DNA from: Planctomycetota bacterium
GTDB lineage: Bacteria > Planctomycetota > MHYJ01 > JACQXL01 > JACQZI01
Direction of reading: 5' to 3'
NCBI GenBank assembly: GCA_016207825.1
Contig: JACQZI010000035.1
Location: forward strand, 1 to 11,190
DNA: 11,190 nt
Part shown: piece by piece, positions 5,056 to 11,063 of the stretch
How the letters are laid out: each line of letters starts with the position of its first letter
Position numbering within the stretch: the first letter of the stretch is position 1
Notes under the pieces: model-generated
The model's input: only the letters and a program-made list of their open reading frames with translations
Told to the model about the DNA's origin: nothing
The model's database searches: none
Made by a program: the position numbers and the translations under genes

Positions 5056-6018
5056 ATGACAAAAAGAATAGCCATAATTACACCGGGCGGCGATGCACCG
5101 GGAGTTAATGCCTGCATCCGAGCACTTGTCCGCCAGGGAATCAGCCATGATTTTACCATGATAGGCGTTTACCGCGGATACGAAGGATTAATCAACGGAG
5201 AAATCGCCTCTCTTGACAGGCGTTCGGTCAGCGGTATTATTCACCACGGCGGAACAATCCTTAAAAGCACCCGGTGCAGTGAAATCCAAACACCGATGGG
5301 GCTGCGAAAAGCGATTGCTTCCATAAGAAGACATCGCTTGGATTATCTTATTGTCATCGGCGGCGACGGCTCTTTTACCGCCGGCCTTAAGATTGCCAAA
5401 AGTGGGATACCGGTCATCGGCATACCGGCCAGCATAGATAACGATATCTACGGCACGGATGAAACCATCGGCTTTGATACCGCCGTCAATACCGCCGTCG
5501 AAGCGATTGATAAAATAAGGGATACCGCGACAAGCTTCGACCGCATTTTCCTCGTGGAGGTGATGGGCAGGGAACACGGCTTTCTGGCATTATCCGTAGG
5601 CGTGGCAAGCGGAGCCGATTTTATCATTATCCCGGAAGTAAAATACGATATCAACCGGATATGCACCGAACTCGTAAAAGACAAAGCCGGCAAGAAGACA
5701 TCGGAAATAATAATCTTTGCCGAAGGCGCCGGCAGGATAATGGATGTAGCTAAAAAGATTGAAACTAAAACGAAAGTTCCGGTGCGCGTTTCTGTCCTAG
5801 GATATATCCAACGGGGCGGCGCACCTTCTGCGCGCTCACGTATTTTAGGCAGTATGTTCGGCGCTTATGCCATCGGATTAATAAAACAGGGACTCAAAAA
5901 CAGGGCGGTGGTCATGCAAAACAATTGCATTACACACATACCTCTTGAAAAGGCAGTCCGCGGTCGAAAACGCATAAATCGGAAATTTCACACCCTCGCA
6001 AAAAATTTATCCACATAA
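5056..6018 (+). CDS. pfkA: 6-phosphofructokinase, ATP-type (PFK family A)
   Basis: It phosphorylates fructose 6-phosphate to fructose 1,6-bisphosphate in the cytoplasm, the committed step of glycolysis. The 320-residue length equals that of E. coli PfkA. Motifs in order are TPGGDAPGVNA (9-19), IGGDGSF (101-107), the catalytic SIDND (Asp128), MGREHG (170-175, substrate binding) and LGYIQRGGAPSARSR (248-262). The residue after GGD is Gly, as in ATP-dependent enzymes; PPi-dependent enzymes have Asp there. The second donor-specificity position reads PASIDND, with Ala where ATP enzymes usually have Gly and PPi enzymes have Lys. Tyr250 replaces the His usual in GHIQRGG, a variation I believe occurs in other family members. 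ATP is therefore the likely phosphate donor, though the Ala leaves some doubt. The gene is divergent from the rhomboid gene and 108 bp ahead of a PPi-type phosphofructokinase. The start is the only plausible one, since GGDAPG normally lies near residue 11. Confidence 0.92.
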   Translation: MTKRIAIITPGGDAPGVNACIRALVRQGISHDFTMIGVYRGYEGLINGEIASLDRRSVSGIIHHGGTILKSTRCSEIQTPMGLRKAIASIRRHRLDYLIVIGGDGSFTAGLKIAKSGIPVIGIPASIDNDIYGTDETIGFDTAVNTAVEAIDKIRDTATSFDRIFLVEVMGREHGFLALSVGVASGADFIIIPEVKYDINRICTELVKDKAGKKTSEIIIFAEGAGRIMDVAKKIETKTKVPVRVSVLGYIQRGGAPSARSRILGSMFGAYAIGLIKQGLKNRAVVMQNNCITHIPLEKAVRGRKRINRKFHTLAKNLST

Positions 6019-6081
6019 AAACTGCTTATTTCATTCAGCCATTCATGCGCTAAATATCCGGAACGACCTCTTTTATTTTAT

Positions 6082-6109
6082 TTGACCTTGGCGGAATATT
6101 TGCTATAGT
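6082..6109 (+). promoter_or_regulatory. Extended -10 promoter of the PPi-phosphofructokinase / aldolase operon
   Basis: TTGACC (6082-6087) and TATAGT (6104-6109) are 16 bp apart, and a TG at 6101-6102 makes an extended -10. The predicted start near 6116 gives a leader of about 10-11 nt with no Shine-Dalgarno. An imperfect inverted repeat, AAATATCCG (6052-6060) against CGGAATATTT (6092-6101), places its right arm in the spacer and could be an operator. Confidence 0.6.
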
Positions 6110-6126
6110 TAATAGAAAATATTATT

Positions 6127-7368
6127 ATGAGCAACCATAAATTGGGAATCTTAGTCGGCGGGGGCCCGGCGCCCGGCATAAACGGCGTCATCAGCGCGGC
6201 AACCATCGAAGCCATTAATCTCGGCTGGGAAGTAATCGGAATCATGGACGGATTCAAGCACCTTGCCAGGGGAACCGATATCCAGACCATGCCGCTGACC
6301 ATAGACGAAGTCTCCCGCATCCATTTCCGGGGCGGCTCAATATTGCGCACCTCCCGGGAAAACCCGACCAAAGACCCAGGGAAGATGCAGAATGTAATAA
6401 ACAGCCTTTCGATATTGGGAATAAACCGCTTAATAACCATCGGCGGCGAGGATACGATTTTTTCCTCCAGTATGGTGGAAAAGGAAATGCAAGGGAAAAT
6501 ACACGTTGCCCACGTCCCCAAAACCATTGATAATGACCTTCCTCTGCCGAATAATCTTTCAACCTTCGGGTACCAGACCGCGCGCCACTTTGGGGTGGAA
6601 ATCGTCATGAACCTGATGGAAGACGCCTTTACCACCAACCGCTGGTATTTCGTGATTGCCATGGGTCGTAAAGCCGGGCACCTGGCGCTGGGCATCGGCA
6701 AGGCCGCCGGAGCGACACTTACCATTATCGGAGAGGAATTCACCTCAAAAAATATCAGCATCGGTCAGATAAGCGATATACTGGAAGGCGCCATTATAAA
6801 GAGGCGTGCCATGGGCAAAGACCAGGGCGTTGCCATACTGGCAGAAGGCCTTGTGGAAAGATTCGACCCCAAGGAACTCGAGGGGCTGGAAGACGCGGAA
6901 AGAGACGAATACGGCCATATCAGGCTTTCGGAAGTAGACCTTGGGAAAATCATCAAGGATGAAGTCAAAAAACGCCTGGAAAAACGAGGGATTAAAATAA
7001 CCATCGTTGATAAAAATATCGGTTACGAATTGCGCTGCGCCTCTCCCATTCCTTTCGATGCCGAATATACCAGGAACCTCGGCCATGGAGCAATCAAGTT
7101 CCTGACAGAAGGAAAAACGGGCGCGGTTATCAGTATGCCGGGAGGCGTTCTTATCCCGATTTATTTCAAAGACCTGATGGATCCGAAAACCGGGCGGACC
7201 GCCGTGCGCTATGTCGATATTAAAACCGAGGCTTACGAAGTCGCCCGCGCTTATATGATTCGGTTAAATAAACAGGATTTCTCTAATCCGGAACAGCTGA
7301 AGCTTCTGGCCAAAACAGCCAAGACGACTCCGGAAGAGTTTAAGAAACAATTTGAATCTGCAATTTAA
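6127..7368 (+). CDS. pfp: PPi-type 6-phosphofructokinase (PFK family A)
   Basis: It interconverts fructose 6-phosphate and fructose 1,6-bisphosphate in the cytoplasm, probably with pyrophosphate as donor. That makes the step reversible and saves ATP. The two residues that set donor choice both have the PPi form: GGEDT (106-110, Asp109 in place of Gly) and PKTIDND (131-137, Lys132 in place of Gly). Asp135 is the catalytic base. Other motifs are GGGPAPGING (11-20), the F6P-binding MGRKAGH (179-185), and an AEG (239-241) found in the family. At 413 residues it is longer than ATP-type PfkA, as is usual for this subgroup, with an inserted charged helix region at about 243-290. The stop codon overlaps the ribosome binding site of the aldolase gene 12 bp downstream, so the two are surely co-transcribed. 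No Shine-Dalgarno precedes its own ATG. Donor specificity is inferred from residues and not proven. Confidence 0.92.
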   Translation: MSNHKLGILVGGGPAPGINGVISAATIEAINLGWEVIGIMDGFKHLARGTDIQTMPLTIDEVSRIHFRGGSILRTSRENPTKDPGKMQNVINSLSILGINRLITIGGEDTIFSSSMVEKEMQGKIHVAHVPKTIDNDLPLPNNLSTFGYQTARHFGVEIVMNLMEDAFTTNRWYFVIAMGRKAGHLALGIGKAAGATLTIIGEEFTSKNISIGQISDILEGAIIKRRAMGKDQGVAILAEGLVERFDPKELEGLEDAERDEYGHIRLSEVDLGKIIKDEVKKRLEKRGIKITIVDKNIGYELRCASPIPFDAEYTRNLGHGAIKFLTEGKTGAVISMPGGVLIPIYFKDLMDPKTGRTAVRYVDIKTEAYEVARAYMIRLNKQDFSNPEQLKLLAKTAKTTPEEFKKQFESAI

Positions 7369-7374
7369 GGAGGA
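7367..7374 (+). promoter_or_regulatory. Ribosome binding site of the aldolase gene
   Basis: AAGGAGGA overlaps the stop codon of the preceding gene and ends 6 nt before the ATG at 7381. This is a near-perfect anti-Shine-Dalgarno match and implies coupled translation in an operon. Confidence 0.85.
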
Positions 7375-7380
7375 ATTAAT

Positions 7381-8727
7381 ATGGATATTTACAGGAATAT
7401 TGACGAGGCAAAATCATCCTCCAAAGGAGCGGTGGAGTGGTCAGGCACAGGGATAAAAGTATTGGACCAGAAAAAACTGCGTGACGGCCTTATTGACCAA
7501 TGGGTCTACAGCGCGGTTTTCAGCCAGGATGCCGCTCTAAAACAATTCCTTTATAAGACAATCAGGGAAACAGCCGAAGCATTGGGTGCCGCGCCTTCAA
7601 GCATACAGTCGCTTTACGAGGCATCGGCAAAAGGCGTCTATAAAAACAAGACTGTCCCGGCGATGAATATCCGCGGCATAACTTACGAAGTCGCCCGTGC
7701 GGCTTTCAGGGCGGCTCTGAAAAATAAGGTCGGCGCATTCATATTTGAAATCGCTAAAAGCGAGATGAAGTATACTATGCAAGACCCGTCTGAATACGCC
7801 GCGGTCATACTGGCCGCCGCCATCAAAGAAGGCTATAAAGGGCCGGTATTCATACAGGGAGACCATTTCCAGTTCGCCTCCAAGAAATTCATGGAAGACC
7901 CCAAAGCCGAAGAAGAAAGCCTAAAGAAACTGATAAAATCAGCTCTCCTGGCGGGCTTTTATAATATTGATATCGACGCCTCAACGCTCGTTAAGCTTTC
8001 ACACGGCACCCTTGAAGAACAACAGGCGAATAACTCCAAGATGACCGCTGAACTGACCAAATTCATCAGGGAAAACCAGCCTAAAGGCGTAACTGTGGCA
8101 ATCGGCGGCGAAATAGGGGAAGTCGGCAAGGAAAACAGCCGCCCCGAAGAACTGCGCGCCTTTATGGGAGGTTATAAAAACCTGCTCCCTAAAGGGATGG
8201 CGGGCATTGCCAAGGTAAGCGTCCAGACCGGCACGCGCCACGGCGGGGTAGTCCTGCCTGACGGCTCGATTGCCAAGGTCAATCTGGACTTTGAAACCTT
8301 AAAAACATTATCCGAACTTGCCAGGCAGGAATTCGGAATGGGCGGGGCAGTCCAGCACGGCGCGTCCACGCTTCCGGATGACGCCTTCAGAAAATTCCCG
8401 GAAATGGGAACGGTCGAGGTACATTTAGCCACCGGATTCCAGAACCTTATTTACGAGCATCCCAAATTCCCGAAAGGACTCTTAACGGAAATAGACGAAT
8501 ACTTGAGGAAAAACGCGGCTGATGAGCGAAAACCCAAGCAGACTGAAGAACAGTTTATTTACACCGTAAGGAAAAAGGGATTCGGCCCGTTTAAGAAACA
8601 AACCTGGGATATCCCTAGGGAAAACCTGGACGCGATAATGGCAACCATGGAAGAGAAATTCACGTTCCTCTTTAAGCAGTTGAATGTAAACGATACGGCG
8701 GATTTGGTTAAGAAAACCATTAAGTAA
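7381..8727 (+). CDS. fba: Class II fructose-bisphosphate aldolase, long divergent form
   Basis: Its probable role is the cleavage or synthesis of fructose 1,6-bisphosphate from dihydroxyacetone phosphate and glyceraldehyde 3-phosphate, using a divalent metal. Class II features appear in order: VPAMNIRG (92-99, like the usual VPAFNV), FIQGDHFQF (157-165, catalytic Asp161 and metal ligand His162), IDIDAST (196-202), GGEIGE (242-247), VQTGTRHGG (281-289, metal ligand His287) and AVQHGAST (323-330, metal ligand His326). These correspond to DH, GEIG, the NVHG or AHG position, and HGGSG of standard enzymes, but the last is altered to HGAST. At 448 residues it is about 100 longer than common class II enzymes, mainly through an N-terminal helical extension (1-90) and a C-terminal tail (375-448). 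Being in an operon with PPi-phosphofructokinase supports the FBP substrate. A related sugar-bisphosphate (tagatose type) is possible. Confidence is high for class II aldolase fold, moderate for exact substrate. Confidence 0.85.
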   Translation: MDIYRNIDEAKSSSKGAVEWSGTGIKVLDQKKLRDGLIDQWVYSAVFSQDAALKQFLYKTIRETAEALGAAPSSIQSLYEASAKGVYKNKTVPAMNIRGITYEVARAAFRAALKNKVGAFIFEIAKSEMKYTMQDPSEYAAVILAAAIKEGYKGPVFIQGDHFQFASKKFMEDPKAEEESLKKLIKSALLAGFYNIDIDASTLVKLSHGTLEEQQANNSKMTAELTKFIRENQPKGVTVAIGGEIGEVGKENSRPEELRAFMGGYKNLLPKGMAGIAKVSVQTGTRHGGVVLPDGSIAKVNLDFETLKTLSELARQEFGMGGAVQHGASTLPDDAFRKFPEMGTVEVHLATGFQNLIYEHPKFPKGLLTEIDEYLRKNAADERKPKQTEEQFIYTVRKKGFGPFKKQTWDIPRENLDAIMATMEEKFTFLFKQLNVNDTADLVKKTIK

Positions 8728-8729
8728 TC

Positions 8730-8862
8730 TAATAGTTGTTTTATTGAACTATTGTTAAGGGGTGTGACAATGGTTCTCCGGAACCGCGGTGTGCCATTGC
8801 CGATAGATAGCCGCTTCGTAATTAACCGATGAACTATTGCACTACTCTCTTCCCTTACCCCT
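8730..8862. other. Structured intergenic region with alternative hairpins
   Basis: This 140-bp gap has no gene. AATAGTT (8731-8737) can pair with AACTATT at 8747-8753 (9-nt loop) or with a second copy at 8832-8838. Those two copies lie in a 9-bp direct repeat, GAACTATTG (8746-8754 and 8831-8839). Further pairs are CAATGG (8768-8773) with CCATTG (8794-8799), the overlapping GGTTC/GAACC (8772-8776 and 8781-8785), and AGGGGT (8758-8763) with ACCCCT (8857-8862). GGTGTG also occurs twice (8761-8766, 8789-8794). It could be an unusual terminator of the aldolase operon, a structured RNA, or a dispersed repeat. No known RNA family is recognised. Confidence 0.4.
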
Positions 8863-8867
8863 AATTA

Positions 8868-8896
8868 TTGACAATATTGTCTCTTGGTTTTATAAT
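8868..8896 (+). promoter_or_regulatory. Perfect consensus sigma-70 promoter of the kinase gene
   Basis: TTGACA (8868-8873), a 17-bp spacer and TATAAT (8891-8896) match the housekeeping sigma consensus at all twelve positions with optimal spacing. The predicted transcription start, about 7 nt after the -10, falls at 8903-8904, which is the ATG of the kinase gene. The mRNA should therefore be leaderless or nearly so. Confidence 0.8.
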
Positions 8897-8903
8897 CATT
8901 TCT

Positions 8904-11063
8904 ATGGCAGATACCAAACTAAAAATCCGTGAATTCAAGTCTCTGGATGAGTTCCGTTTATGGTGGGAAGGGGAGGAAGTGACCGGATTCTGCCAGCGCC
9001 ATCCGGAAAAAGTCGCCCGCTTAAAATCCCACCGCTGGGTTGCTCCATGGATAACCAAGCATACCCAGTCCGAAGGCGAAGAGGTAAAACAACCCGCCGG
9101 CAAGTCGTTCGGCAAATACATCATAGAAAAGAAACTCGGGCAGGGCGGTATGGGCGCGGTTTACCTGGCACACGATACTGTCTTAAAAAGAAAAGTGGCA
9201 CTAAAAGTGATGCTCTTGAAAGGCGCTCAGGCAATCGAGCGCTTTAACCGCGAGGCGCGTGCCTCTGCCAAGCTAAAGCACCCCAATATCATTTCGCTCT
9301 ACGAAGTCGGCACAATTGATAAGTATAACTACTTTACCATGGAGTATATTGACGGAAGTTCTCTGGATAAAATGATAAAAGACAAGGAATTAACCCCTAA
9401 ACGGACTGCCGAGATTATAAAGGATATCGCCAATGCGCTTCATTATGCGCACACTCAGGAAATTGTCCACCGTGATATTAAGCCCGCCAATATCCTGGTA
9501 GATAAACAGGGGAAAGTATATTTAACCGATTTTGGGCTGGCAAAAGAACTTAGCGGAACCGAGCATTCGCTAACCATGACCGGGACGATTATGGGGACAG
9601 CCGATTATATGTCCCCGGAGCAGGCAGAAGGGATTAAGAGGAAGATAGATGCCAGAAGCGATGTCTTTTCGCTTGGCGCAACGCTTTACCACGCCTTAAC
9701 CGGACATACGCCGTTTAAAGGAAAGGAACTCTACCAGATACTGGAAAGCGTAGTGCGCAAAGACCCAATTCCGCCCTGCCGTTATATAAAGAATCTGTCC
9801 AAAGATATCGAGACCATATGCCTTAAATCCATGGAAAAGGAACAGAAAGCCAGATACCAGTCATCCAAGGAATTAGCCGATGATTTAACGCATTATATAA
9901 ACGGAGAAGCAATATCCGCCAGACCAATCGGTTTTATAGGCAGGATATTCCGTAAAGCCAAACAGAATAAGGTTGCCAGCCTATCGATTGCCGGAGTAAT
10001 AGTGATTCTTATTGTTTTGGGTATTATGGCATCGGTCTCATCCTCAAATACCCGTCAAGAAGCTTTAGGTTATTTTAATAAGGCGCAAGGTTTTTATGAT
10101 AAGAAGGACTATAACGAGGCGAAGGTATGGGCAAACAAAGCGCTTACTCTTTTGCCTGATGACGGAGCGATTAAGGATTTAATCAATGAGTGTAATGATG
10201 CCTTGGAAAAGATATCCGAATCCGATAAAGAAACGAAGGTAAACAGGGAAAAGGCTAAATCTATACTTGATAGAATAAATGTGGGCGATCCTTCGACTGA
10301 TGACAAAATAAAGGCCGCCGAGGATGCCCTTGATATTGACCCGTCCTATGGCGATGCCTGGCAGGTTATGGGCTATGCCTATGTGGGAAAAGCCAATGAG
10401 AATGCACAGAATCCGGATAAGTATCGGAAACTAATAGACAAGGCGTTTGAATGTTTTAGCAAGGCAATTGAAAAAAACCTCTCCCTGACCTATTCATATT
10501 ATGAGCGGGCGTTTATTATTGCTTTTATTTATGATAAAACCGAAGAAGCAGTGGCTGATTTTAATAAAGTAATCGAACTTGATCCTGAAAGCCCTCTCGG
10601 ATATTTTGCTCGGGGGACGATTGAGTATTACCATAAGAATTATGATAAAGCCATTGATTACCTTGCCAAGGCAATAAATCTTAAACGTGATTATGCCGAT
10701 GCGCATTTTAATCTTGGTAATGCATATAATAATTTAGGGAATTATAAGAATGCAATAGAGTTTTATAAAGAAACCATCCGCCTTAAGCCTGATTTTGCCA
10801 AGGCGCATTATAATCTTGGGAATGCCTATAGGAGTTTAGGGAATAACGTAAAAGCAATCGAATCATACAAAGAAGCCATTCGCTTCAAGCCTGATTTTGC
10901 CGAGGTGCATTATAATCTTGGGAATGCCTATAGGAATTCAGGAAATAACGTAAAAGCAATAGAATCATACAAAGAAGCTATCCATCTCAAGCCTGCTTAT
11001 GCCGAGGCGCATAGTAATATTGGGGTGGCCTATACCGAGTTGTGGGATGATCTGCTTTGTTGA
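8904..11063 (+). CDS. Membrane Ser/Thr protein kinase (Hanks type) with extracellular TPR array
   Basis: Numbering from the ATG at 8904, the protein has 719 residues. Residues 1-66 form an unnamed N-terminal segment with CQRH (30-33). The kinase domain covers about 69-335: glycine loop GQGGMGAVY (79-87), Lys101 in VALKVM, HRDIKPANIL (189-198, catalytic Asp191), DFG (209-211) and SPE in place of APE (237-239). All catalytic residues are present, so it should be active. One membrane helix lies at about 357-377, which puts the kinase inside and the C-terminus outside. The outer part carries TPR units at about 384-435, 470-560 and 563-719, the last ones being 34-residue repeats with LGNAY cores. 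A TTG at 8868 in the same frame is rejected as the start because it is the -35 box. The final repeat breaks off as TELWDDLLC. TPRs suggest protein binding; the ligand and target are unknown. Confidence 0.93.
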   Translation: MADTKLKIREFKSLDEFRLWWEGEEVTGFCQRHPEKVARLKSHRWVAPWITKHTQSEGEEVKQPAGKSFGKYIIEKKLGQGGMGAVYLAHDTVLKRKVALKVMLLKGAQAIERFNREARASAKLKHPNIISLYEVGTIDKYNYFTMEYIDGSSLDKMIKDKELTPKRTAEIIKDIANALHYAHTQEIVHRDIKPANILVDKQGKVYLTDFGLAKELSGTEHSLTMTGTIMGTADYMSPEQAEGIKRKIDARSDVFSLGATLYHALTGHTPFKGKELYQILESVVRKDPIPPCRYIKNLSKDIETICLKSMEKEQKARYQSSKELADDLTHYINGEAISARPIGFIGRIFRKAKQNKVASLSIAGVIVILIVLGIMASVSSSNTRQEALGYFNKAQGFYDKKDYNEAKVWANKALTLLPDDGAIKDLINECNDALEKISESDKETKVNREKAKSILDRINVGDPSTDDKIKAAEDALDIDPSYGDAWQVMGYAYVGKANENAQNPDKYRKLIDKAFECFSKAIEKNLSLTYSYYERAFIIAFIYDKTEEAVADFNKVIELDPESPLGYFARGTIEYYHKNYDKAIDYLAKAINLKRDYADAHFNLGNAYNNLGNYKNAIEFYKETIRLKPDFAKAHYNLGNAYRSLGNNVKAIESYKEAIRFKPDFAEVHYNLGNAYRNSGNNVKAIESYKEAIHLKPAYAEAHSNIGVAYTELWDDLLC
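10779..11040 (+). repeat. 102-bp tandem repeats encoding TPR units
   Basis: Within the kinase gene, units at 10779-10880 and 10881-10982 are each exactly 102 bp (34 codons) and differ at only about ten positions. A third, more diverged and incomplete unit starts at 10983, and older relatives lie upstream (for example 10677-10778). The DNA-level identity points to recent tandem duplication. Confidence 0.85.

Follow-up and report, generated by a model that had tools for sequence, protein, structure and literature searches.

Leaderless genes form a minority class in several bacterial groups. In the TA-led genes described by Zheng et al. 2011 (PMC3160421), a -10 box precedes the start codon by about 12 bp and no Shine-Dalgarno (SD) sequence is present; Deinococcus-Thermus and Actinobacteria are among the groups that have such genes, and Planctomycetes are not named among the leaderless-gene groups of that study. 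In Deinococcus-Thermus, a -10 region adjoining the ORF drives the production of leaderless mRNA, and the motif is found on about 30% of ORFs (PMC12340547). For Planctomycetes, Nakagawa et al. 2017 (PMC5397173), in a survey of non-SD initiation, took base bias in one genome as a sign of leaderless and/or S1-based initiation; unlike the present analysis, that study covers neither promoter anatomy nor a gene-level case. The phylum is almost absent from the leaderless surveys we found, and our literature search returned no transcript map for it, although one may still exist. The sequence analysis presented here gives evidence for a class of leaderless genes, with promoters close to consensus, in one order of planctomycetes. 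The predicted class belongs to a kind already known in bacteria.

The gene under study lies in a window of 11,190 nt, the whole stretch of DNA analysed, from a planctomycete genome of 2.89 Mb in 42 contigs (hereafter G000). It encodes a Ser/Thr protein kinase of 719 aa (8904..11063, + strand) with matches to PF00069 (1e-53) and to TPR families. The protein consists of an N-terminal domain of about 50 aa (8904..9056, + strand; EFKSxDEFRxWW...HxxVxPWL) common to the kinase's relatives, a kinase domain (9117..9866, + strand), one transmembrane helix recognized by eye, and TPR repeats. The kinase domain scores 182.9 bits against a curated cut-off of 31.7 for PF00069, and the motifs HRDIKPANILV and DFGLA agree with the HRDxKPxN and DFG signatures of Hanks-type Ser/Thr kinases. 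At least 13 kinases from two genomes carry this N-terminal domain (EFKSxDEFRxWWxSPEV...HPxVxPWL); it corresponds to no Pfam family.

Directly before the kinase gene, on the same strand, we read a -35 hexamer TTGACA (8868..8873), a 17-nt spacer (8874..8890), a -10 hexamer TATAAT (8891..8896) and a 7-nt gap, CATTTCT (8897..8903), that leads to the ATG start codon (8904..8906), which is also the predicted transcription start. Both hexamers were recovered by a promoter scan of the window, and the site matches the sigma-70 consensus at 12/12 positions, as a preliminary description of this DNA had reported. No other 12/12 site occurs in the window, which as a whole is rich in promoter-like sites (42 vs 19.7 in shuffles). 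The same description had noted the lack of a Shine-Dalgarno sequence, and the 20 nt before ATG 8904 indeed contain no SD-like run. As in TA-led genes, the -10 box is centred about 10-12 bp before a start codon that has no Shine-Dalgarno before it and is supported by homology. Bases 8903 and 8904 are T and A, a pyrimidine-purine initiator. Since sigma-70 start-site choice favours such a step, transcription is expected to start on the A of the ATG or on the base preceding it. The earlier characterization of the promoter as one of maximal strength would be an extrapolation from the consensus match; a full-consensus promoter is not in every case the strongest.

We consider it highly likely, from the sequence comparisons described below, that the kinase mRNA is leaderless, counting within this reading a start one to three bases early. 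The site at 8868-8896 would act as a housekeeping promoter of the sigma-70 type, transcription would begin at, or about one base from, the A of ATG 8904, and the resulting mRNA would carry a 5' AUG essentially without a leader. A ribosome, by analogy an undissociated 70S particle, would then initiate on the terminal AUG without Shine-Dalgarno contact and produce the 719-residue kinase MADTK..., the TTG at 8868 being part of the -35 box and not a start codon. The kinase gene would be one member of a genome-wide leaderless-type class in this planctomycete order, and its family uses the promoter-at-ATG arrangement repeatedly.

The position of that TTG creates an annotation trap: a 17-nt spacer and a 7-nt gap always place the TTG of the -35 box in frame, 36 nt before the true ATG. 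Here the 36 nt contain no stop, the frame from TTG 8868 reads LTILSLGFIIIS-MADTK, and a mechanical ORF list puts the gene start at this codon, 12 codons upstream of the ATG. Translation from TTG 8868, with 12 extra residues, a promoter further upstream and hexamers present by coincidence, is nevertheless very improbable. The frame is likewise open in paralogue C8:257326 (63% identity; TTGACA-17-TATACT-7-ATG), but an in-frame TAA lies inside the promoter of paralogue C8:253015 (46% identity; TTGACA-17-TATAAT-7-ATG), the 6-nt gap of the broken paralogue C8:266-268k (TTGATA-17-TATTAT-6-ATG) puts the ATG out of frame with the TTG, the other relatives lack the 12-residue extension, and no Shine-Dalgarno precedes TTG 8868. 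Homology with the paralogues and with kinases of order-mates starts at residue 1-6 of MADTK. The TTGACA hexamer, the spacer length and the 7-nt gap are kept in C8:257326 and C8:253015, and three relatives in the order-mate (G003) show TTGACG-16-TATAAT-6, TTGACA-17-TATAGT-9 and TTGACA-16-TATAAT-6. Upstream DNA is shared with C8:257326 only around the -35 box, in a 19-nt block (8859..8877, + strand) with 100% identity to C8:257281-257299 (E 0.01), and nothing else in the genome matches the upstream DNA notably; this restriction and the TAA in C8:253015 indicate that a DNA element was kept and not a peptide. The preliminary view that the 12 residues would be false is supported by the relatives, which fail to conserve them. 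A leader of one to three bases, from a start at 8901-8903 and with SD-independent translation, is a tentative sub-case that falls largely within the confidence given above to a leaderless start: start-site choice can shift by 1-3 nt and gaps in the genome range over 5-11, but no pyrimidine-purine initiator in range is better than T8903-A8904. In known systems, mRNAs with leaders of this size act much like leaderless ones.

The kinase could also be, in the main, the last gene of a glycolytic row transcribed into a leadered read-through mRNA, with its own promoter secondary. Two different phosphofructokinase-family genes and a class II aldolase-like gene occupy positions 5056-8727 in a row; the aldolase gene is on the same strand as the kinase and ends 176 nt before ATG 8904, and a search of the intergenic region up to the promoter (8728..8867, + strand) found no terminator-like site, so that some leadered read-through mRNA may be made beside the leaderless one. 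On such an mRNA, however, the SD-less kinase would lack the usual entry site, and the 12/12 promoter at the leaderless position is kept in paralogues with different surroundings; we regard this reading as quite unlikely. The intergenic region folds better than its shuffles (-37.8 kcal/mol, z -2.84). An Rfam search matched no RNA element, this region included, and no full copy of 8728-8867 was found elsewhere in the genome.

A leaderless start of the kinase mRNA is further consistent with the promoter landscape of the genome. Exact TTGACA-N15..19-TATAAT sites number 64 in G000 vs 2 for the reversed pattern, and TTGACA-N16..18-TATAAT has an ATG 4-9 nt beyond its -10 box in 18 cases vs 0 in the control. 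The promoter at 8868-8896 is therefore not a product of chance; the first of these counts also implies that the organism uses classical sigma-70 promoters and that a perfect one is not rare. A comparison of 149 genomes of the phylum found the combination of a perfect promoter and an ATG at gap 5-9 most often in the order of G000. Counts at gap 5-9 and at the control gap of 20-24 were 17 and 4 in G000, 15 and 3 in G004, and 6 and 5 in G003, so that G003 is not set apart by this crude count alone, but is by the gene-based count that follows.

For gene-based statistics, long ORFs were called with the first ATG taken as start, a guess that is sometimes wrong, and genes were split by the presence of an SD sequence. 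Hits were promoters with at least 9/12 matches and 5-11 nt between the end of the -10 box and the first ATG. The statistics cover about 0.9 Mb of G000 and 0.4 Mb of G003; as a first sample of 520 kb was biased, having been partly picked for perfect promoters, rates were taken from 400 kb per genome chosen regardless of promoters. A promoter at the leaderless position was found for 16/194 SD-less vs 0/142 SD genes in G000 (p = 1.3e-4) and for 15/172 vs 0/119 in G003 (p = 5e-4), which pool to 31/366 vs 0/261 (p = 4e-8); a few of these hits are due to chance, the background per 194 SD-less genes being about 6 at threshold 9 and 2 at threshold 10. Promoters of SD genes sit further upstream. As in TA-led genes, the -10 box is in excess over controls at this distance genome-wide. 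Around strong promoters, ORFs of at least 100 aa peak at gaps 6-10 when they begin with ATG; those beginning with GTG or TTG peak weakly if at all. Raw ATG counts at gap 5-11, taken without an ORF requirement (unbiased set, threshold 10), were 29 vs 27 expected from gaps 15-39; the excess emerges once ORFs of at least 100 aa are required, weakly when the threshold is raised to 11, or when genes are split by class. In four further genomes of the phylum, sampled on a small scale, such a peak was slight or absent (0-5 SD-less genes each). A T at position -1 was considered as an initiator signal and rejected as not specific, being about equally strong in SD genes.

By this strict count, leaderless-type genes make up about 5% of genes (31/627), probably a low estimate because both boxes had to be present and in some genes the first ATG is not the true start. 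They resemble the TA-led genes of Zheng et al. 2011 (PMC3160421) in being an SD-less minority, and differ in that the -35 box is also near consensus; the share is below that of the Deinococcus-Thermus motif (PMC12340547), both boxes being required here. The class includes LpxB, a MiaA-type IPP transferase, ThiG, Dus, a pterin-binding (FolP-type) enzyme, AccA, a Clp ATPase, PSP1, QueC, a RarA/MgsA-type ATPase, a transporter and HEAT-repeat proteins. Since housekeeping enzymes are among them, the arrangement is general and not restricted to regulators. The leaderless mRNA predicted by the preliminary description thus gains support from both paralogue geometry and the comparison of SD-less with SD genes; its view that the arrangement is unusual does not hold, consensus promoters and leaderless-type starts being common in the genome and the order, for housekeeping genes too.

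What remains of interest is the repeated use of the leaderless-type arrangement by one kinase family. Among intact kinase genes of G000 and G003, 11/38 (29%) are leaderless-type on the first ATG vs 31/627 of genes (p = 6e-6), a p-value that, like others for this enrichment, overstates the case because kinase relatives are not mutually independent. The proportion reaches 8/13 for kinases sharing the N-terminal domain, against about 5% of genes, and is 3/25, with no significant enrichment (p = 0.14), for those without it. The other five same-domain kinases have no recognizable promoter at leaderless distance, which counts against the leaderless reading, but no strong SD either. It appears unlikely that selection has kept leaderless initiation as a conserved trait in this one kinase family of planctomycetes, marked by an N-terminal domain of its own; were it so, these kinases would be translated under stress or with altered initiation factors, where SD-led genes are not.

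Several minor observations concern the kinase paralogues and the phylum. The paralogue at L040:2930-3292 and G000:C8:266727-268103 has lost its frame and acquired a stop, with the leaderless-type promoter still present. Directly after a kinase pair, L039:14849-16927 (G000:C8:259848-261926) encodes a 693-aa protein with a Cas12f1/TnpB-like TNB domain (PF07282), and this gene has its own 12/12 promoter with a 10-nt gap to the ATG. At L041:10235-10330 (minus strand), a tRNA-Arg(CCT) gene has its 3' end about 21 nt before the start of a kinase paralogue, and the stretch separating them holds no more than a weak -10-like site; the paralogue may be co-transcribed with the tRNA and released by tRNA 3' processing. 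Finally, the phylum is placed as Planctomycetota by hydrazine synthase, to our knowledge known only from anammox planctomycetes, which is present in two of its genomes (G107 and G139).
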